The notes beneath the pieces were generated by a model, which made no database searches, was not told the DNA's origin, and saw only the letters and a program-made list of their open reading frames with translations. DNA of 64,000 nt from positions 744,001 through 808,000 of the forward strand of contig NW_020289977.1 in the NCBI RefSeq assembly GCF_003144245.1, in the 5' to 3' direction. Below are positions 7,128 through 23,700 of this stretch, piece after piece (within the stretch, counting starts at the first letter, position 1; the number at the start of each line of letters is the position of its first letter). The position numbers and the translations under genes are program-made. The DNA is from Jaminaea rosea (taxonomy: Eukaryota; Basidiomycota; Exobasidiomycetes; Microstromatales).

Positions 7128-10100
7128 CTAAGCGCTGGTTGCTACCGCAGGCAACGAGATCTTCCCCTTGGGCAAAGTGTCAACGCCCACGGGAAGCGCG
7201 TTGCGCCACTCGGGCACACCGTTACTGAGCGAATCCTCATAGAACCTCTTCCCCTCGGTCGTAGCTCTGATGATGCCCACCCTGGTGACGTAGTCGCCAA
7301 AGGGCTCTCCCTCCTCCTTGTGCTTGGCGTAGCTCTCCACCACAGGCTCGAGGAGCTTGATGATCTCGTCCTCAGTGACCGACTCAGCATACGGCTTGGA
7401 GGGCCTTGATCCATCGTGTGCGCCACCAAGCAAGAGGAGGTACGTGCCGGGCGCCTTGCCGACAAGCCCGATCTCACCCAGCCAGGATCGCGAGCACCCA
7501 TTTGCGCACCCACTGACCCTAGTAGTGACCTCGGTCTCCTGCAAATTCCAGCGCGCAAACAGCTTCTCGACACGCCCTGCGAAGCCGCCAAGCATACGCT
7601 CCGACTCTGCCATGGCAAGACCGCAGGTAGGGAAGGCCACGCAAGCAGAAGCGGACTTGAAGACGCCGGTGAGTCGCTCGTACTGGTCCATGTTCCAAGC
7701 GCGAAGGTGCTCCTCCAGCGCCTGCTTGCGGTCGGCTGGCACATCGGCCACGATAATGTGCTGATTGGGCGTCATGCGCAGCTTGGAGCCCCATTCCTCC
7801 GCATCCATTCGCCTGCAAAGCTCGTAAAGGCCCTTACGGAACTCCTCGCCAGGCACGTCCTTCACGCGGCCATTTTCGAGCCACAGGGTGCAGTGCCAGT
7901 TGCCACGGTGATCCTTCTTCCAGCCGTACTCGTCCGTGTTCGTCGTGAACTTGTACGACTCGGGCTCGGCCAGCTGGTAGCCAAGGCGACGCTCCAGCTC
8001 CTTGCGGAAGTTCTCCGGCCCCTTCCAGTAATTGTCGATGGTGTACTTCAGACGAGCCTGCTTGCGGTTAGCACGGTTGCCCGTGTCGCGCTGAATAAGC
8101 ATGACCTGCTTGCACGCCTCGAGAGTTTGCTCGCAGGTGACGAAGCCAATGACAGAGCCCGCACGGGGGTATGTGACCTTCATTGAGTGCGTGACTCCCA
8201 TGCCGCCTCCGACGGAGAGGTTGAAGCCCTTGAGCTTCTTGTCCTTGCCAGCGATGGCGATGAGACCGATGTCGTGCGCGAAGCAGTCGGTATCGTTGCG
8301 TGGCGGGACAGCGATTGCAATCTTGAACTTGCGGGGAAGGTAGTAAGGGCCGTAGAGGGGCTCGTAGTCCTTCAAGGCTCCGCCAGCGAGAAGTTGGTTT
8401 TTGGAATCAGTGCCCTTGTCGAGCCAGATCTCGTGGTAGGCATTCATGCGCGGCAGGAGGTACTCTGAGATACTCTTGCTGAATTCGTAGACGTCATCGT
8501 GGAGCTGGGAGATGGCCGGGTTGGGCGAGCACATGACATTGCGGTTGACGTCGCCGCAAGCGGCAATGGTATCGAGGCAAGCCTTGTTGATGCCCTGCAT
8601 CGCAGACTTGAGATTGCCCTTGACCACGCAGTGGTACTGGATCGTCTGGCGGGTCGTGATCTTCATTGTCTTGTTGCCGTACTGCTCAGCCACATCGTCG
8701 AGCTGCATCCACTGCTTGGGCGTGCAGACACCACCGGGGATACGGCAGCGGATCATGAATGAGTAGGCGGGCTCCAGACCGGCAGCCTTGCGCTCGTCGA
8801 GGGTGTCGCGATCGTACTGCATGTAAGTGCCGTGGAACTTAGTCAGCTGCTGGTCCGTCTCAGCGATGGCACCCGTCGACTTGTCGGCGAGACCCTCGAC
8901 GATCGTTCCACGCAGGTAGTTGGAGGCAATCTTCATGTGCTCGTTGTTGATTGGCTCGGGCTCAGCCTCCTTGACCTCGATTGCGTCGACGCCCATGGCC
9001 TTCCAGACGAGAGGCTCCCAAACCTTGTAGCCCGTCTGCGGTCCATCAGGGTCCTGGTCGTCGCCCAGACCGAGATCAGCCACACGCTCAGCGCCAAGCT
9101 TCTCGAGACGGAGATCAAAGTCCTTGCCCGGCTTGTTGTAGTAGTGAGCGTCCTCGGGACGAGGCCAGTAGTGTGAGTCGCCCATACCGAAGACGGAGTA
9201 CTTGACACCGGAAAGCGAGCCTGACTCCATGGCCTGCAGCGCTTTCCAGGTGAGACGACCGTTCTGCGGCGCCTCACCCTGACCAGCGGTCGAAGTGAGG
9301 AAGATGACATTCTCCTCATCCTTGAGCTCCTCGGCCACTGGGAAATCGTCCATCGCAAGGAGACGGGCAGCAATTCCTCGAGCCTTGGCACGGGCAGAGA
9401 GCTTCTTTGCCTGCTTTTCAGCGTTGCCGCCGTCAGAGGCGAAGAGAATCAAAAGCGGCGGACCATCCAGGTTGTCAAGCATCTTCTCGTACGCCTCCTT
9501 TGCCTTGCTCTTCTGCCTCTCGCGCAACGCCGTTCCCTGGCTTGAGGCCAAGTCGTAGCTAAGCTCAGGTCGAGCATTGGCGAGGAAGCTGAGATGGTTC
9601 TGACGGTCCAGAAACTCGCGAAGCTGCTCGCGAACGCGAGTGCTGTCGAGACGGAAGACCTCCTTGCCCTTGCTCTCGGCGCTTGGGTCCCAGCGGTAGA
9701 GGGGCCAGTAGCCCGAATCAACAGCCAGCTTCGTTTCCTTAAGTACCTCAATGGCAGCTGCATCGACTGTACGGTAGGGGACGTATGCAAGCACGACGGA
9801 CGGGCCATCGAACTTGTCTGCCTCGAGGAGTGCGTGAAGCACCTGCGTGTAGTCAGCGTAGACGGCTGTGCTGGCAACGTAGGCGCCACCGTAGCTCATT
9901 GCGTAGAGACCAATGTCTTTCTTGCGCTTTGAGGCGTCGATGCTGTCACGCTTGCTGTATGGCAAGGTGTCAAAGATGAGCATATTGACGTTGCGACCCG
10001 AGGCGAGGACGTGGTGCACACCGCCCATGCCAGCGTCGTAGGCCCATGCGTCAGAGCCAACGATCCAGCGTGACTTGTTGTCGGCGTGCGAGACGAGCGA

Positions 10101-11675
10101 CTTGATGCTGTCGATGTCAGGGGAAGACGAGGCGCTGGAGAGGAGAGTCGAGAATTTGGCAGAGAGGGCGGCGCTCTTGGTGGAGTCGTCCTTGCTCACG
10201 AGCCACTGCGACAAAATGTCGTGAAGCTCGGGCGAGACACCACCGGTGCGCACAGCAGACTTGACTGCTCGCTCGAGGGCGTCGCGCTGCTCGAGCTGTC
10301 CCATGACTTGACCGAAGGCATACTCTGGCGAGCGAGCAGCCGGGTGGGGGTCCGTCTCGTCGTGCGGGGAGTTGATGACCGCCAGACGCTCTTTGAAGAC
10401 CTGGTCAAGCATGATCGAATAGGCCTCCTCGTGTTTGGGCGGTGTGACAGGAGCAGTGGTCGCGGGAGCGGGCGCGGCGGTCTTCTTGACCGTGTCACCA
10501 ATCAGCACACCGTGACCAGCCTTCTGCGATGAGAGCGCATTCGAAACGGTCTTTGCTGCGTCGCTGGCGTTGCTGCTGGTGATGTGACCAAGTGATCCGC
10601 TGACAAAGGTGGCGGGAATGCTACGAGAATCGTCTGACTGCAAGGCAGTGGCGACGTCGACGAAAAGGGGCCCGATGCGCGTCGTGCGGCGGGCACTTCG
10701 CTCCAAAGTGATGAGGCGCTTGGCCGACGTGGGGATGACGGAGAGGAGGGAAGTGGCGAGAGAAGGTCGCACGAGACGCACGTCAATAACGGCGAGGCTT
10801 GAGTCTGCCTTGGAAAGAGCCTCTGCACCCGGTCCAAGGACGACTGCCACGTCCGATGCTTGCGAGCTACCGTAGAGGGCAAAGGGCTTGACCTCGCGGC
10901 CTACGAGGTCGGAGACGGCATCATAGGCGGCAGAAAGGTCGGCATCCAAGTCACCGGTCGAAGCGGGCGCCTTGACGTGGGAGGCGCCATTACCGTTTGC
11001 CACTCCATTGCCGTTGGATGCAGCATAGCCATTGCTTCCGTTGACGCCGTTGACGCCGTTGACTCCATTGGGCGCCGTTGACGGGGAAGTGGCCGACGAT
11101 GATGAACTCGCCACAAAAGACTTGAGATCAGCCTCTGTCACCTCGTCCTGGACGGCGTCATTGTCGCCATCGACTGTCTCGAAGTAATGCAGAACCGCCC
11201 TTTTGGTTGTGGCAGCGATGCGTACAGCCAGCAACGCATGGTCGTGGGCCTCAGTGGCGGTTGAAGAGTGTAGGATGATGAGACCCGAAGATCGCAGAGC
11301 GAGTACGTCAGCATGATCACCTGATGTGGCAATGTGAATGACCGAGGCCGTGTTGACCAAAGCAGGGAGGTGTGGCACGAAGCGGGTGAGGAGCGACGTA
11401 TCCGCCGAGGCCAGGAGTGAGACGACACCGGATGCAGCTGCCTTGGAGAGGTTGATCAACTCGGCAGCGGGCTCGTTGTGGAAGGCGACATCGTGAACTG
11501 AAGCGTCTGCTGACTTCGCTGTGAGGGATGCTGAGAAGGGGGAAGCGGGCGACGAAGCTGCCGGGGTCACATTGACAATTGACCTCGACGAGTGCAGCGC
11601 CACCTTTGCTACGGCGGCAGCAGCGGCGGCAGCCATCGTAGCGTGAGAGGGAGGTGGGGTGGTGGTGATGGTCAA
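7128..11675 (-). CDS. MET5: Sulfite reductase (NADPH) beta subunit
   Basis: An intronless 1515-residue hemoprotein subunit of assimilatory sulfite reductase, which reduces sulfite to sulfide with NADPH for cysteine and methionine synthesis. The yeast counterpart (Met5/Ecm17) is 1442 residues. An N-terminal region related to pyruvate:ferredoxin-oxidoreductase folds is followed by a flavodoxin-like domain from about residue 730 (LLILFASDGGNAEKQAK, then STAGQGEAPQNG), and the siroheme/4Fe-4S reductase core follows. Cluster ligands are visible as CX5C at Cys1345/Cys1351 (CVAFPTC) and CX3C at Cys1390/Cys1394 (CANGC). TRQTIQYH and CGDVNRNVMCSPNP are further core motifs. The low-complexity insert around residues 200-235 (repeated NGVNG) is probably disordered. 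The flavoprotein partner (MET10-type) is not in the window. A CACGTG site lies 368 bp upstream. Confidence 0.96.
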   Translation of the reverse strand: MTITTTPPPSHATMAAAAAAAVAKVALHSSRSIVNVTPAASSPASPFSASLTAKSADASVHDVAFHNEPAAELINLSKAAASGVVSLLASADTSLLTRFVPHLPALVNTASVIHIATSGDHADVLALRSSGLIILHSSTATEAHDHALLAVRIAATTKRAVLHYFETVDGDNDAVQDEVTEADLKSFVASSSSSATSPSTAPNGVNGVNGVNGSNGYAASNGNGVANGNGASHVKAPASTGDLDADLSAAYDAVSDLVGREVKPFALYGSSQASDVAVVLGPGAEALSKADSSLAVIDVRLVRPSLATSLLSVIPTSAKRLITLERSARRTTRIGPLFVDVATALQSDDSRSIPATFVSGSLGHITSSNASDAAKTVSNALSSQKAGHGVLIGDTVKKTAAPAPATTAPVTPPKHEEAYSIMLDQVFKERLAVINSPHDETDPHPAARSPEYAFGQVMGQLEQRDALERAVKSAVRTGGVSPELHDILSQWLVSKDDSTKSAALSAKFSTLLSSASSSPDIDSIKSLVSHADNKSRWIVGSDAWAYDAGMGGVHHVLASGRNVNMLIFDTLPYSKRDSIDASKRKKDIGLYAMSYGGAYVASTAVYADYTQVLHALLEADKFDGPSVVLAYVPYRTVDAAAIEVLKETKLAVDSGYWPLYRWDPSAESKGKEVFRLDSTRVREQLREFLDRQNHLSFLANARPELSYDLASSQGTALRERQKSKAKEAYEKMLDNLDGPPLLILFASDGGNAEKQAKKLSARAKARGIAARLLAMDDFPVAEELKDEENVIFLTSTAGQGEAPQNGRLTWKALQAMESGSLSGVKYSVFGMGDSHYWPRPEDAHYYNKPGKDFDLRLEKLGAERVADLGLGDDQDPDGPQTGYKVWEPLVWKAMGVDAIEVKEAEPEPINNEHMKIASNYLRGTIVEGLADKSTGAIAETDQQLTKFHGTYMQYDRDTLDERKAAGLEPAYSFMIRCRIPGGVCTPKQWMQLDDVAEQYGNKTMKITTRQTIQYHCVVKGNLKSAMQGINKACLDTIAACGDVNRNVMCSPNPAISQLHDDVYEFSKSISEYLLPRMNAYHEIWLDKGTDSKNQLLAGGALKDYEPLYGPYYLPRKFKIAIAVPPRNDTDCFAHDIGLIAIAGKDKKLKGFNLSVGGGMGVTHSMKVTYPRAGSVIGFVTCEQTLEACKQVMLIQRDTGNRANRKQARLKYTIDNYWKGPENFRKELERRLGYQLAEPESYKFTTNTDEYGWKKDHRGNWHCTLWLENGRVKDVPGEEFRKGLYELCRRMDAEEWGSKLRMTPNQHIIVADVPADRKQALEEHLRAWNMDQYERLTGVFKSASACVAFPTCGLAMAESERMLGGFAGRVEKLFARWNLQETEVTTRVSGCANGCSRSWLGEIGLVGKAPGTYLLLLGGAHDGSRPSKPYAESVTEDEIIKLLEPVVESYAKHKEEGEPFGDYVTRVGIIRATTEGKRFYEDSLSNGVPEWRNALPVGVDTLPKGKISLPAVATSA

Positions 11676-16927: not shown

Positions 16928-19203
16928 ATGAGCGCAAGCCCTGCCCCTAGAGAAGACTGGATTCCAGCTGCCCCCGAGTCGTGAGCATCACCACAAAGGC
17001 GCATATACTCAGTCTCGGCGGGCGAGGCGCAGCTCCAAGCTCGAGCGATAACATCAGTAGCTGATCATCCCTCATCGCACCGTCGTCACAGATTCAACCT
17101 CAAGCAGCAATCAGTCGCCGTTCCCGGATCGGAAAAGGAGGGATTCACTCCCATTTACCGCAACGCAGCCGTCCCTGAGCTCTCCACCCGCGAGACCTAC
17201 TACGATGTCTTCAACATCGGACGCGAAAAGGCACACAACAAACATTGTCTCGGATGGCGCCCCTTTGACTTTGCCACTGGTACCTTCCTGACAAAGTACG
17301 TCTGGCTCACCTACGATGAGGTTGAAGAGCAGAGGACAGCCGTCGCCTCCGGTCTTGCCCACCTCGCCGCATCTGGCAAGCTGGGCCAAGGCCTGCCAAA
17401 GACCAAGTGGACCGTAGGCATCTGGTGCCAGAACCGACCAGAGTGGCAGATCATCGACTTTGCAAACGCAGCCCATAATCGCCAGACTGTAGGTCTGTAC
17501 GACACTTACGATGACGATTCGGCCCTGTACGTCCTCAACCACTCCGAGGCAAAGGTTTGCTTCACTACCACTTCACATATCTCGACTCTGCTTGGCTCGT
17601 CCGACAAGCTCCCCCACCTCCGTGCCATTGTACTCCTCGACCTATTGCGAACCGAGAACTTGCCGCAGGGTGAGCTCAGCAGGCAGCAGCTTGCGCGTCA
17701 ATGGGCTGCACAAAAGGGAATCGAGGTCCTCAGCTTCTCGGATGTCCTTCAGCTAGGCCGATCCAACCCGACAGCTCACGAGCCTCCCAAGGACAACAGC
17801 GAAATCAGTGGCTACTGCTACACTTCGGGCACCACTGGCAGGCCCAAGGCCGCCCTCGTCGCCCACCATCAGCTGGCACTCGCTTCTGGCTGCACACCCC
17901 TCACCGGCTTTGCAGCGGATGACGACGAGACGATGATCAGTTACCTCCCCTTGGCACACATCTTTGGCCGCTTCCTCGAGGCTTGCATGTTCCGTCGCGG
18001 CGCCAGGATCGTGAGTAAGCCACTTCAGCCAGCTGCAAGCTTCAATCTGACCGTTTTCCCCCTCTCATTCTCGCGCAGGGCTACTTCGGAGGCGATGTCG
18101 CCAAGCTCGTTGAGGACGCCCAGGTCCTCCAGCCCACCCTCTTCCCGGGCGTTCCTCGCGTCTTCAACCGCATCGCTGCGCAGATCCAATTCCAGGTGGA
18201 CGGGCCAGGCCTCAAGGGCAAGCTGCTCCGCACAGCCGTCAATGCCAAGATTGCCAACCACGATGAGGATGCCTCGGTCACGCACGCGCTGTGGGACCGC
18301 GTCGTCTTCAAGAAGGTGCAGGCCATTCTCGGCGGCAAAGTCAAGTCGATGGTCAGCGGCTCTGCTCCCATTCGCCCCGAGGTGATCCGTTTGCTGCGCG
18401 TCTGCTTCGCTTGCGACTTCCGTGAAGGGTACGGTCAGACGGAGAACACGGGCTGCTGTCTCATCATGATGCCAGGTGACAAGAGCCTTGGATCATGCGG
18501 TGCTCCTCAGCCTGGCTGTGAGGTCCGACTCAAGGATGTGCCTGAGCTTGGGTACCGTTCAACGGACAAGCCCTGGCCCCGAGGTGAGCTTCTCAGTCGT
18601 GGTCAGACTACCTTCCCCGGCTACTACAAGGACCCTGAAAAGACCAAGGAGACAATCGACGAGGACGGCTGGCTCCACTCGGGCGATGTTGCTGCCTTTG
18701 ACGACCTGAGCCGATTCCGTATCATCGACCGAGTCAAGAACCTGGTCAAGCTCGCGCAGGGAGAGTACGTCGCCATCGAGAACGTTGAGCAGACTCTCAG
18801 CTCCAACAAGTTCACGGCTCAGACCTGGCTCTATGGCGATTCGCTGCAGGCTCATCTCGTTGCCGTTGCCGTGGTCGACCCAGAGACCTTTGCTCCCCTT
18901 GCTTCTAGCGTGACGGGCAAGCAGCTCACCTCGTCCGACCTCAAGGGCCTCGAGGAGGTGTGCAGCGACGAGAAGGTGGTCAAGGCCGTGCTCGACGAGT
19001 ACACGCGCATCGCAAGGCAGCGCAAGCTTGCTGGCTTCGAGTACATCAAGAATGTCAAGCTGCGCGTCGAGCCCTTCACGGTGGAGAATGGTTTGATCAC
19101 TCCGACGTTCAAGATGAAGAGGCCAGAGGCGAAGAAGATTCTTGCAAAGGACCTCGAGGAGCTCTACGCCAAGGAGCCGGCGAACACGTCGTCGAAGCTT
19201 TAA
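16928..19203 (+). CDS. Long-chain acyl-CoA synthetase, peroxisomal (Faa2-like)
   Basis: Three exons, 16928-16980, 17092-18010 and 18079-19203, give 698 residues, close to yeast Faa proteins. The enzyme activates fatty acids to acyl-CoA with ATP. The AMP-binding P-loop is YTSGTTGRPK. Further family motifs are SYLPLAHIFGR, GYGQTENTG and the hinge DGWLHSGDV with RIIDRVKNLVKLAQGEYV. The protein ends in NTSSKL, a canonical PTS1 tripeptide (SKL). Peroxisomal import is therefore expected and the role is probably feeding fatty acids to beta-oxidation, as for yeast Faa2. The first exon carries only 53 nt. The 3' end converges on the alpha-ligase gene with a 109-bp gap. Confidence 0.93.
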
Positions 19204-19312: not shown

Positions 19313-20615
19313 TCACGAAGACATCAAACTTTCCGCCAGCCCCAATGTAAGCACGTCTGCCAAGCCGAAGCCGCTCCCTCCCTTGTCCCCATTGTCCCCC
19401 TCGATCAAGCCCCGTCTCTTCATCTCTCCCACAATCGCCGGCCCCGTATCCGCAATGGTGTCTACCACCTTGATCCCCACCTCCTTCCACGCCTCGCGCT
19501 TCTGCTCCGCCGAGTTGATCCCATCACGCCACACGGCACCGGAGTGGCCGAATGTCTGACCCGGAGGCACATTGCGGCCAGAGATGAAGCCCACGATAGG
19601 CTTTATCGGCTCGCCCGTCTCGGCGTTGAGGTAGCCGTTGCTGTGGAGGAGGTCGATGGCTTCTTCCTCCATGACCCCTCCCACTTCGCCTACCAGTATG
19701 ATCCCCTTTGTGCTCTCGTCATTCATGAAGAATTCGAGGGCTTCGGCTGTGCGTGTGCCCGGGTAGAAGTCCCCGCCGAGACCAAAGATGTAGGACTGGC
19801 CGGTCGATTTGCACGAGGCTGCGGCCTCGTAGGAGAGGGTGCCGGATCGGGCGGCGATGCCTGGGCACAGGATGGCAGGGATTGAGTTAATCATCGAAGG
19901 GAGCAGGAGTGAAGACATGGACAGGTGGTTCGAGCGCTCACCTATCGGTCCTGGCGCTGCGACTATACTGGGCGAAATCCCGAGCCTACATCCGGCCGGG
20001 TTGACTAGTCCTGGGCTGTTCGCTCCAACCAGACGCGATTTGTCCTGTGAATGTAGAGCGGACATGACCTTGATCTGATCATGCACCGGTATTCCTTCCG
20101 CCACGCTTACGATGAGGGGCACCTCGTTCTCTATGGCGTCGATTATTGCGTCTGCCGCGAGGAGTGGAGGGACGAAGACTGCGGTAGCATGTGGCTTCAC
20201 ATGCTTGACGGCCTGTGAGCAAAAGGGACTGGTAAGTGCTGATGCCCTACCAATCAATGATCTAGAGTGACGCTCTGGCGCACCTCTTTCACGCTATCAA
20301 AGACGGGCCGTTCCAGATGTGTTCTTCCCCCCTTGCCTGGGCTGACCCCGCCGACGATGTTGGTGCCCATGTCCAGGGAGAGCTTGGAGTGGAAGGTGCT
20401 CTGCCGTTTGCTCGCGAGGTCAGCGTGGCCAAACTCTTGCTTGCCTCGCCAAATGAAAAGCAGGGTCCGCCCGCACTCACGCTCTTTCCCGTAAATCCCT
20501 GCACAATACATGGTGTAGACGCATCGACCTTGAGATTGCCAATCGTACGTGCGTAGGAAGTCTTGAAGAGACGAGCGCCGTCGGCAGCTGTTTTCAAGGC
20601 TCCCTTGGATGCCAT
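19313..20615 (-). CDS. Succinyl-CoA ligase alpha-subunit-like protein
   Basis: Four exons, 20481-20615, 20284-20400, 19942-20212 and 19313-19860, keep frame and give 356 residues (yeast Lsc1 is 329). One donor is GTGCGC. The CoA-binding Rossmann half ([29 protein letters not shown]) and the ligase half ([17 protein letters not shown]) are both present, and the phosphorylated histidine is retained at about residue 280. It differs from standard mitochondrial alpha subunits: GANSPG stands for the usual GPNCPG, AARSGTL for VSRSGTL, and there is a 20-residue Gly-rich C-terminal extension. The N-terminus is basic and hydroxylated, compatible with mitochondrial import. It lies head-to-head with a beta-like gene. 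It may be a paralogue rather than the main TCA-cycle subunit. Confidence 0.85.
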
Positions 20616-20838
20616 CGTCAGTCCCTTAGGCCATGCACGCGGCGGAACGCTTTGCGTCTCGCTAGGATGTGGTGAGTTGGAAGCGTTGATCGATTGCCTT
20701 CCCACGACTTGAATCGTGACAGGACTCCACCTCCGATTCAATCGCCGGCATTGCCGTGTCGTTGATCCGTGCGTTTTCCCCGCACTCGCTCTTCTTGACC
20801 ATTAATCCCTAGCCAACATTCCGCGTAGTACCGCTAGC
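20616..20838. promoter_or_regulatory. Divergent promoter of the alpha/beta ligase-like pair
   Basis: Only 223 bp separate the two start codons of the divergent alpha-like and beta-like genes. Shared control, and so matched expression of two partner subunits, is the simple reading. No specific factor site was recognised. Confidence 0.5.
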
Positions 20839-22384
20839 ATGTCTCTCCTTAGGAGCCCGGCCGCAAGACAATTATCACGATTACAGGTCTCTCATCGCTG
20901 CTTCTCCATCAAGGCACAAAGGGCGGCCAAGTACCTTTCTGACCAGTTGGGCGTACCTGTCTCGAGCTCATCAGCATCAACATCATCAAGTCCCCGTGAC
21001 GGTCTTGCCATCCTCCTCCACGCCGACAGACGAGCGCAGCGTGTCGGTCCTGATTCGACAACCTTTTTCGGCCCCACACTCGTTGCTGTTTCCACCTCAC
21101 GCCTCTCCAACACTCCATCAAACCAGCGATTCGGCGAAGGCGATCTAGGCTTGTTAGCCCTATCCCAAGCCCCTGGGTTCGGCGCGAAACAAGCCATACA
21201 AGGGCACAAAGGTGACATGCTGCAGCCGAGCTCTGTACTCTGTCTGCTGGAAAGGGAGGAAATCGATGACGCCCTCAAGAGCGAGAAGAGCAAGAAAGCA
21301 GTCGCGGAGATGTTGGTCAAGTTGTGGCAGGTCTTCAAGAGAGGGGAGGGAATCTGGTTTACATGCGTTGTGCACGAAGAAGCAGAGGGCGTTATCGATG
21401 TGTGAGATGCTCATCCCTGGAAAGAGAGCCTGGCCAATGGCTGATGTCTCGATCGCTCCGCAGCTCATCTCCCTACCTCGAGTTCGACGACTACGCAGTG
21501 CATCGCATGCCTGAAGACCTCCAAGAGTTGCACAAGGCTCAAGAGGAGGAGAGGGAACCCAATGTGACTTTACGAGCACCCTTCTGCGACACTTCGCTCG
21601 CTAGCTGACGCCCCGACGACCTGACGCATACCAGTCCGCACAGGCATCCGATGGCGGTCTCTTCTATATCAAATTGCACAACGGCGGGAACATCGGCTCC
21701 TTTGGGTATGGAGCGGGCAATGCCATGGCGACAATGGATGGGCTGGCGCTCGCAGGGGGCAAGGTGAGTGCGCTCAATGAAGCAGAGGACGGGAAAGCCG
21801 CTGAACATGACGAGGATGGCGATGACGCAACAGCCTGCCAACTTCTTGGACGGAGGCGGTGGCGCGAACCGCAAGAACTCCGAACTAGCTATCGAGACGC
21901 TCAATCGTGATCCTGATGTCAAAGCCATCTTCGTCAACAGTGAGCTCAATGCTCCATGCCATGGAGCGACCGCACTCTAACACCGCTCTCTTGCTCGTTG
22001 CAGCTTTCGGAGGCATCACGCAGACCGAGTGCGTAGAAGTGTGAGGGAGACGGCGTGCTTGCATTGGCTCACAACACAACCTCCCCTGCTCTCCTACAGC
22101 GTCGTTGCCGACGGCATAATAGACGCCATTCGGGCGAACGACATGAAGCAGCCCATCGTGGTACGGGTGATGGGTACTGGTGCTGACGAGGCGAAGAGAA
22201 AGGTGCGTCAGATCCTCACTATGGTGATGTTGCCCCCTGCATGACACTGACTTTGCGCTACTCTTCCGGCTTTGTCGCACAGCTTCGCGAGTCAGGCCTC
22301 AAGATCACCATCGAGGACGATTTCAAGGCCGCGGCGAGGTTGGCGGTCGAGCAGGCTGAGCAGGCGGAGAAGGGCGAGTTGTAG
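20839..22384 (+). CDS. Succinyl-CoA ligase beta-like protein, degenerate ATP-grasp
   Basis: Seven exons: 20839-21401, 21464-21563, 21635-21763, 21834-21939, 22004-22028, 22100-22202 and 22283-22384, all in frame, 375 residues (yeast Lsc2 is 427). Exon 3 could instead begin at 21644. Residues 1-30 look like a mitochondrial presequence (LLRSPAARQLSRLQ, RCFS). The C-terminal ligase domain is well kept: GNIGSFGYGAGNAMATMD, ANFLDGGGGA, VNTFGGITQTD, ADGIIDAI. The N-terminal half should be an ATP-grasp domain, but the glycine-rich VHAGGRGKAGGV loop is absent, and the Mg-binding EINPL ... DxK segment is replaced by CVVHEEAE ... DVSSPYLEFDD. It is therefore either a non-catalytic partner or an enzyme with altered nucleotide use. 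It probably pairs with the divergent alpha-like gene. Confidence 0.8.
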
Positions 22385-22525: not shown

Positions 22526-23700
22526 TCAGTCATGCCCCAGCTTACGCGTTACGGCCGGCCCATCCTTGCTCTTCCCGCTGCCTTCGCCGCGCTCCAACTG
22601 GCTCGGTGTAGGCTCATCCTCGCTACCCTCCTCTCGCAGCCTCTGCGCCTCTTCCCTCCTCTCCGCAGCCCTCTGCTCAGCAGCAGCAGCCTCCGCCTCG
22701 GCAGCAGCCACAGCGGCATCCTCGTGTGGCTGAATCGGCAGCGCAATGCGGCCCTCACGCTCCTCAGCACGCTGTCCATTGATATGACCCCAGGCCACGC
22801 TCGCAATGAGACCCGTCCCGATCAATGCAATGCTGAGGACGTGAGCAGCAAAGACCTCAGTGGGGCGATGCTCTGCCAGTCTGCGGTTGAACAAGAGGGC
22901 CAGCTGAAGGAAGATGGATGCTCCTCCCGTTGCGAGGTCCGTCGTCGCAAAGGTCCACAGCGACGCGGCCACACCTGTTGAGACGACGATGATGAATGTA
23001 GGCCAGATGGTCTGCTTCAAGTCGTGCGGGCTCTCTGCCAGACCGAAGAGGATAAATCCCTGTTGCCAGACGTCGATTTGCAAGAGGACGGCGAGGAAGA
23101 GGCGGATAGGCAGATGGACGAGGAGCCACTCGACGGGCCTACGCCAGGTGGGGCTGTACGAGCGAAGTACGCCGGTGACGAGGGTGCTTGCCAGGAGGAC
23201 TAGAAGGGCAGCCCCGAGAAAGGCCTCTCCCGCGATGAATGCTGGGCGGGTATTGACGACGAAGAGGGGAGCCCAGATTGCTACGCAGAGGTTGGCGAGG
23301 GGAAGGTACGGGCCCATGCCATTCGTAAGAAGGGCCTGCGTTATGGGTGGGAGGAGGGACGCGTCAGATGGATCCACACTGGACTTAAGCTGAGTGCTGC
23401 GTCGAGCCTGCTCACCTTTGTATGATCGCCAGAGGCCAGAGCCACGCTCAATGCAGTGCCCACCTGTAGCAGGAGGAGCAGCGCCCAATAGCCCAGCAGC
23501 CACGCATTGTTAGGCGCAAAGAAGGTCGGGTGCAGCCGTGCGACCGTGTCCAGTGAAGGCTTGAGCACGATCGTCGAGATGGAAAGCGAGGCGATGAGGA
23601 TGAGGAGCGAAATCGGGTGGAGCACCTGCAGCCGACCAAAGGCCTTGGCAGAGAAGCTGGGCACTTCATGTGCTTGGTCTTCGTGGTGTGAAGAAGGCAT
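22526..23700 (-). CDS. Multi-pass membrane protein of unknown function
   Basis: Two exons, 23416-23700 and 22526-23335, joined in phase 0 across an 80-bp intron (CTGAC branch, CGCAG acceptor), give 364 residues. About seven hydrophobic segments can be seen, among them LLILIASLSISTIVL, LLGYWALLLLLQVGTAL, FLGAALLVLLASTLVTGVL, TFIIVVSTGVAASLW and VLSIALIGTGLIASVAW. The tail from about residue 300 is an Ala/Glu/Arg-rich helix (AAVAAAEAEAAAAEQRAAER) and probably a cytosolic coiled coil. I do not recognise the family; small fungal DUF-type membrane proteins have this layout. It converges on the beta-ligase-like gene with a 141-bp spacer. Confidence 0.7.

Follow-up and report, generated by a model that had tools for sequence, protein, structure and literature searches.

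A head-to-head pair of diverged succinyl-CoA synthetase-like genes in a fungus, with a beta-like subunit that lacks a recognisable ATP-grasp domain

Within the 64-kb stretch of fungal DNA analysed here (the window, meaning that stretch at its full length), two divergent genes encode proteins that resemble the alpha and beta subunits of mitochondrial succinyl-CoA synthetase (SCS), and the beta-like protein is without a recognisable ATP-grasp domain (Table 1). This is the main point of the analysis and was overlooked in an earlier sequence-only reading of the locus. The function of the pair is probably not the standard reaction of the citric acid cycle. The explanation that we favour, to which we give a little less than an even chance, is that the two genes are a diverged paralogous pair from mitochondrial SCS in which the CoA/phosphohistidine half of the enzyme would have been kept and the nucleotide half lost, leaving an NTP-independent acyl-CoA-handling protein or a pseudo-ligase.

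Table 1 Positions in the window of the two genes and of the parts discussed in the text
Feature	Positions	Strand	Description
Alpha-like (LSC1/SucD-like) gene	19313..20615	-	4 exons: 20615-20481, 20400-20284, 20212-19942, 19860-19313; 3 GT-AG introns; intact frame, 356 aa
Beta-like (LSC2/SucC-like) gene	20839..22384	+	7 exons: 20839-21401, 21464-21563, 21635-21763, 21834-21939, 22004-22028, 22100-22202, 22283-22384; 6 GT-AG introns; intact frame, 375 aa
Intergenic stretch, start codon to start codon	20616..20838	.	223 bp, 57% GC; putative shared promoter
GHSGA codons of alpha, residues 279-283	19535..19549	-	include active-site His280 (= His246-alpha); from the sequence and alignment to E. coli SucD
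Beta exon 1	20839..21401	+	presequence-like start, then the ATP-grasp position without a recognisable domain
Beta CoA-ligase domain	21635..22384	+	motifs GAGNAMATMD, FLDGGGGA, TFGGI, VVR; Pfam PF00549; 33/40 invariant sites kept

Both gene models were built from raw reading frames, with the sequence as their sole basis, and all nine introns are 62–81 bp long with GT...AG ends. The sequence-only reading had described a head-to-head pair, 223 bp apart, encoding two subunits of one ligase type. Both statements are borne out: 223 bp separate the start codons of two intact, intron-bearing genes, the closest solved relative of alpha is human SUCLG1 (8e-81, 276 bits), and the best match of beta is human SUCLA2 (1e-36, 130 bits), limited to beta residues 154–368. 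The short spacing suggests that one promoter may serve both genes; a promoter scan for bacterial-type sites found none, a type of site that is not meaningful in a fungus. The yeast LSC genes are two single-copy genes according to PMC4224347. Each of the two proteins has a start of mitochondrial type, with six R/K and one D/E among the first 30 residues of alpha and six R/K and no D/E in those of beta.

The case against an ATP-grasp domain in beta comes from several kinds of search. Ligase_CoA (PF00549, 1.2e-20, residues 247–362) is the sole Pfam domain of beta over its cut-off, with ATP-grasp absent from the matches at that level, and all 11 PDB matches begin at residue 149 or beyond. An ATP-grasp profile derived from five canonical regions recognised yeast LSC2 (371 bits) and gave no match to beta at E<=10; run against the six frames of the whole window (fragments of at least 20 aa), it returned one 2.7-bit chance match that lies outside beta. 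When the search was repeated on seven proteins, E. coli SucC scored 338 bits and beta −1.5 bits, the latter at residues 287–312, outside the N-terminal region concerned. Yeast LSC2 and E. coli SucC had contributed to the profile and serve as positive controls only. Global alignment of beta residues 21–190 with six references was no better than alignment with shuffles (Z −1.32 to 0.86, 500 shuffles each), and none of the 104 plasmid records matching beta in tblastn covers at least 80% of the protein, whereas 89 of the 105 records matching alpha do so.

Residue counts agree. Across 10 references (Cupriavidus and Azospirillum SucC were left out), 9 of the 38 invariant sites survive in the ATP-grasp region of beta; when each reference was left out in turn, the worst, a malate-CoA ligase beta, kept 38 of 43. 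Glu197-beta aligns with Thr175, Asn199 with a gap and Asp213 with Ser190, in columns that border the weakly aligned stretch; Asn199 and Asp213 are presumably the metal-holding residues of SCS beta. Because alignment columns before about residue 150 are unreliable, single residues that appear kept there, such as Lys25 opposite Lys46, mean little. No EINP-like motif was seen by eye in the three plus-strand frames of the beta region, and an AF2 model of exon 1 alone, made without an alignment, reached a mean pLDDT of 37, too poor for use.

Confidence in the gene model is lowest at the start of beta, whose first exon has a weak coding score. On codon usage the eight training genes score 0.02–0.63, alpha 0.14 and beta after exon 1 0.33; exon 1 scores −0.04, which is the best of the six frames, is below the lowest training gene and is equalled or exceeded by 8% of 400 off-frame controls. 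Coding scores are negative over residues 1–66 and 100–132 and the beta model comes from sequence alone, both of which would fit an artefact in which the true beta has an ATP-grasp exon that the model missed or the assembly dropped, for example through an assembly deletion. We consider such an artefact quite improbable, since no frame of the 64-kb window contains anything ATP-grasp-like, just 223 bp lie between the genes, and exon 1 is a single open frame running into the conserved part.

Neither protein reaches the curated cut-off for its SCS subunit: beta scores 166.3 bits against NCBIfam sucCoAbeta TIGR01016 (cut-off 375.55) and alpha 290.5 bits against TIGR01019 (cut-off 353.2). Both also sit on very long branches in maximum-likelihood trees, with end branches of 3.23 for alpha (median 0.41) and 2.92 for beta (median 0.34, C-terminal part only), in each case about eight times the median and thus a similar acceleration of the two subunits. 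The sequence-only reading had proposed a divergent pair that is not the TCA-cycle enzyme, and these scores and branches, together with a beta lacking a recognisable ATP-grasp domain, do make the TCA enzyme unlikely. That the pair could instead be the sole LSC1/LSC2 of the fungus, ordinary and fast-evolving and thus the TCA enzyme itself, is very improbable indeed: it would have no recognisable nucleotide-binding domain, its scores are far below the SCS cut-offs, and alpha and beta reach 276 and 130 bits to their best human chains, compared with 376 and 415 bits for yeast LSC1 and LSC2. The loss of ATP-grasp argues indirectly for a canonical LSC pair elsewhere in the genome.

The other half of the enzyme is far better preserved. 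Alpha carries the two domains of an SCS alpha subunit, CoA_binding (1.1e-21) and Ligase_CoA (7.9e-16), both over the gathering score, and its His280 and Glu233 are the counterparts of His246-alpha and Glu208-alpha. The active histidine that had been pointed out within GHSGAVW is indeed present and aligned as expected; yeast LSC1 carries GHSGAI, so GHSGA in alpha is not odd in itself. Alpha is 46% identical to human SUCLG1, 45% to yeast LSC1 and 45% to a Chitinophagales SucD, whereas the human and Chitinophagales proteins are 60% identical to each other. Of the 81 positions invariant across 11 references (yeast, human and nine bacterial proteins, one of them adjoining a malate-CoA ligase beta gene), 64 are unchanged in alpha and 17 differ; yeast, the worst reference in the leave-one-out control, keeps 81 of 92. 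Unusual residues had also been claimed for two normally fixed motifs of alpha, and this holds for one of them: GPNCPG has become GANSPG, with Pro replaced by Ala148 and Cys by Ser150 at invariant sites, whereas in AARSGTL the SGTL is intact. The C-terminus of alpha (19313–19399, minus strand) has about 28 extra residues, Gly-rich and then a stretch of 12, and outreaches the C-terminus of all 11 references, the Bacillus reference covering just the first few of these residues.

In beta, identity to five references is 29–30%, compared with 42–54% among those references themselves, and seven of the 40 invariant sites of the CoA-ligase domain (10 references) are changed; the worst reference in the corresponding leave-one-out control, pig SUCLG2, keeps 40 of 47. 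Among the changes is Cys325 to Thr307, with Arg324 to Gln306 beside it, and Gly321, Ile322, Asp326 and Arg348 are kept. Much of the CoA/power-helix end of the enzyme survives, as SGT in alpha and as GG-I and the arginine in beta; the nucleotide end cannot be recognised.

To ask where conservation is concentrated, we took the columns in which yeast and human agree and compared sites invariant in all references with other sites. Alpha retains 64 of 81 invariant and 49 of 101 other sites (p=2.9e-5) and the beta CoA-ligase domain 33 of 40 and 23 of 47 (p=0.0015); the N-terminal region of beta shows no preferential retention (9 of 38 and 15 of 65, p=1.0). This pattern is what selection on the CoA/histidine half, and not on the nucleotide half, would be expected to leave, although it falls short of proof: it is drawn from one alpha and one beta sequence of a single genome, and retention of invariant sites could predate the loss of ATP-grasp or reflect unequal mutability between sites. 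The pattern also bears on whether the genes are a decaying duplicate, a former SCS pair turning into pseudogenes with no present function. Long branches, the weak coding score of beta exon 1 and the unrecognisable ATP-grasp domain would all be expected of decay; intact frames and GT-AG junctions over the 11 exons of two genes, the preferential retention of invariant sites in alpha and in the beta CoA-ligase domain, and a coding score for beta after exon 1 that is inside the training range would not, and we regard decay as distinctly unlikely.

What might the retained half do? In SCS, the alpha histidine becomes phosphorylated, with Glu208-alpha and Glu197-beta stabilising it, and it is believed to swing across to the nucleotide site of beta (PMC10342173). 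For a related enzyme, it has been proposed that the power-helix/CoA site and the ATP-grasp domain are bridged by a histidine loop that moves about 30 A (PMC11494057). Under our favoured explanation, alpha and beta would still pair as an alpha-beta dimer in mitochondria and retain the half-site where acyl-CoA, phosphate and histidine meet, with a histidine that could not be charged from ATP or GTP, and the head-to-head layout would keep both subunits co-expressed. Such a dimer may bind succinyl-CoA or a related acyl-CoA. It might then run the nucleotide-free half reaction only, converting acyl-CoA and Pi to acid and CoA via acyl-phosphate and phosphohistidine, with discharge by water or by another protein, or it might be an acyl-CoA-responsive pseudo-ligase. 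A more specific proposal, which we hold to be possible but somewhat doubtful, is that the divergent locus encodes a dedicated nucleotide-independent SCS-like heterodimer of fungal mitochondria, its ATP-grasp half discarded and its phosphohistidine/CoA half put to use in succinyl-CoA sensing or in a new reaction of an acyl-CoA or acyl-phosphate. The kept half-site may equally be inactive, given the changes at invariant sites that include Cys to Ser150 in alpha and Cys325 to Thr, with Arg324 to Gln beside it, in beta. Of the earlier suggestion that the pair has its own substrate or role, a role other than the TCA reaction survives as probable; the part about substrate needs changing, since it is the nucleotide end that is lost and the CoA/histidine end that is largely kept.

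The two subunits need not be partners only of each other. They could instead serve the ordinary enzyme as regulatory or alternative subunits, alpha joining canonical LSC2 or beta joining canonical LSC1 in mixed dimers of altered activity. The histidine and much of the CoA-binding side are still present in alpha, and exchange of partners does exist, as mammals pair one alpha with either of two betas (PMC5126846). The similar acceleration of both subunits and the adjacency of their genes fit a dedicated pair better, and we consider mixed dimers unlikely.

As to origin, the trees place neither alpha nor beta with support, and transfer of the pair from bacteria is not supported by them. Matches of alpha to mammalian SUCLG1 reach 8–10 residues further toward the N-terminus than matches to bacterial or archaeal SucD, from which we lean weakly toward a duplicated mitochondrial LSC pair over a bacterial origin. 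Scanning genome contigs with alpha gave 58 candidate stretches, of which one was confirmed, a Chitinophagales SucD at 44%, and no orthologue; two scans of viral contigs yielded 4 and 18 candidates, and none of these was confirmed. These scans seed on exact short peptides and detect close kin only. The plasmid matches are of bacterial SucD/SucC type, with all 105 records for alpha and all 104 for beta below 60% identity. Among the titles examined in literature searches, none described such a fungal pair, which is weak evidence of absence.

Comparison with known systems places the pair nearest to mitochondrial SCS (LSC1/LSC2, SUCLG1/SUCLA2, SucD/SucC), with which it shares the domain layout of alpha, the active histidine, Glu208-alpha and a beta CoA-ligase domain with GG-I and VVR. 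Unlike SCS, the beta of the window has no recognisable ATP-grasp domain and no Glu197-beta, both proteins are under the family cut-offs, and the genes are head-to-head. ATP-citrate lyase and citryl-CoA synthetase belong to the same superfamily and are matched by alpha more weakly than SCS is, but the window alpha has no citrate synthase domain (Pfam) and the window beta no ATP-grasp. The malate-CoA ligase MtkA/MtkB has the same fold, and beta residues 192–371 match the MtkA-type model NF010647, but with 143.6 bits against a cut-off of 604, and an Aminobacter MtkA-type protein retains the ATP-grasp region in our alignment. FdrA/AllF of E. coli, of the oxamic transcarbamylase AllFGH, resembles the pair in being SucD-like (45.9 bits to the SucD profile) and in giving no ATP-grasp match. 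Its authors detected no SCS activity (PMC8550087), and it is one 555-aa protein that requires AllG and AllH (PMC11326118); it sets a precedent in which an SCS-like protein lacks SCS activity and performs other chemistry. Kinship with FdrA beyond the superfamily was rejected, as blastp of E. coli FdrA gave E values of 0.076 against alpha and 2.5 against beta.

If the pair proves to be conserved and expressed, it would be a natural dissection of a textbook enzyme, in which the machinery of one half-reaction was kept and that of the other removed in dedicated subunits, and it would show whether phosphohistidine/CoA chemistry can run, or be sensed, without a nucleotide. Mitochondrial succinyl-CoA, and through it perhaps protein succinylation, could then be subject to a new form of control; annotators would also be warned that the label 'succinate-CoA ligase' is probably incorrect for such genes.

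The window also contains fungal-type genes of the ERG4/ERG24 family and for a Glyco_transf_15 mannosyltransferase, ATP synthase gamma and sulfite reductase. A 1515-aa open frame (7128–11675, minus strand) joins a pyruvate-ferredoxin-oxidoreductase-type stretch to a flavodoxin domain and sulfite reductase domains. Adjoining beta, the open reading frame at 22526–23503 (minus strand) resembles a multi-pass membrane protein on inspection by eye; Pfam gave no match to it at E<=0.001. On the other side, the gene of an AMP-forming acyl-CoA synthetase (Pfam AMP-binding, about 17100–19203, plus strand) lies tail to tail with alpha, about 110 bp separating its end from the alpha stop codon, and two unrelated CoA-ligase families thus adjoin.
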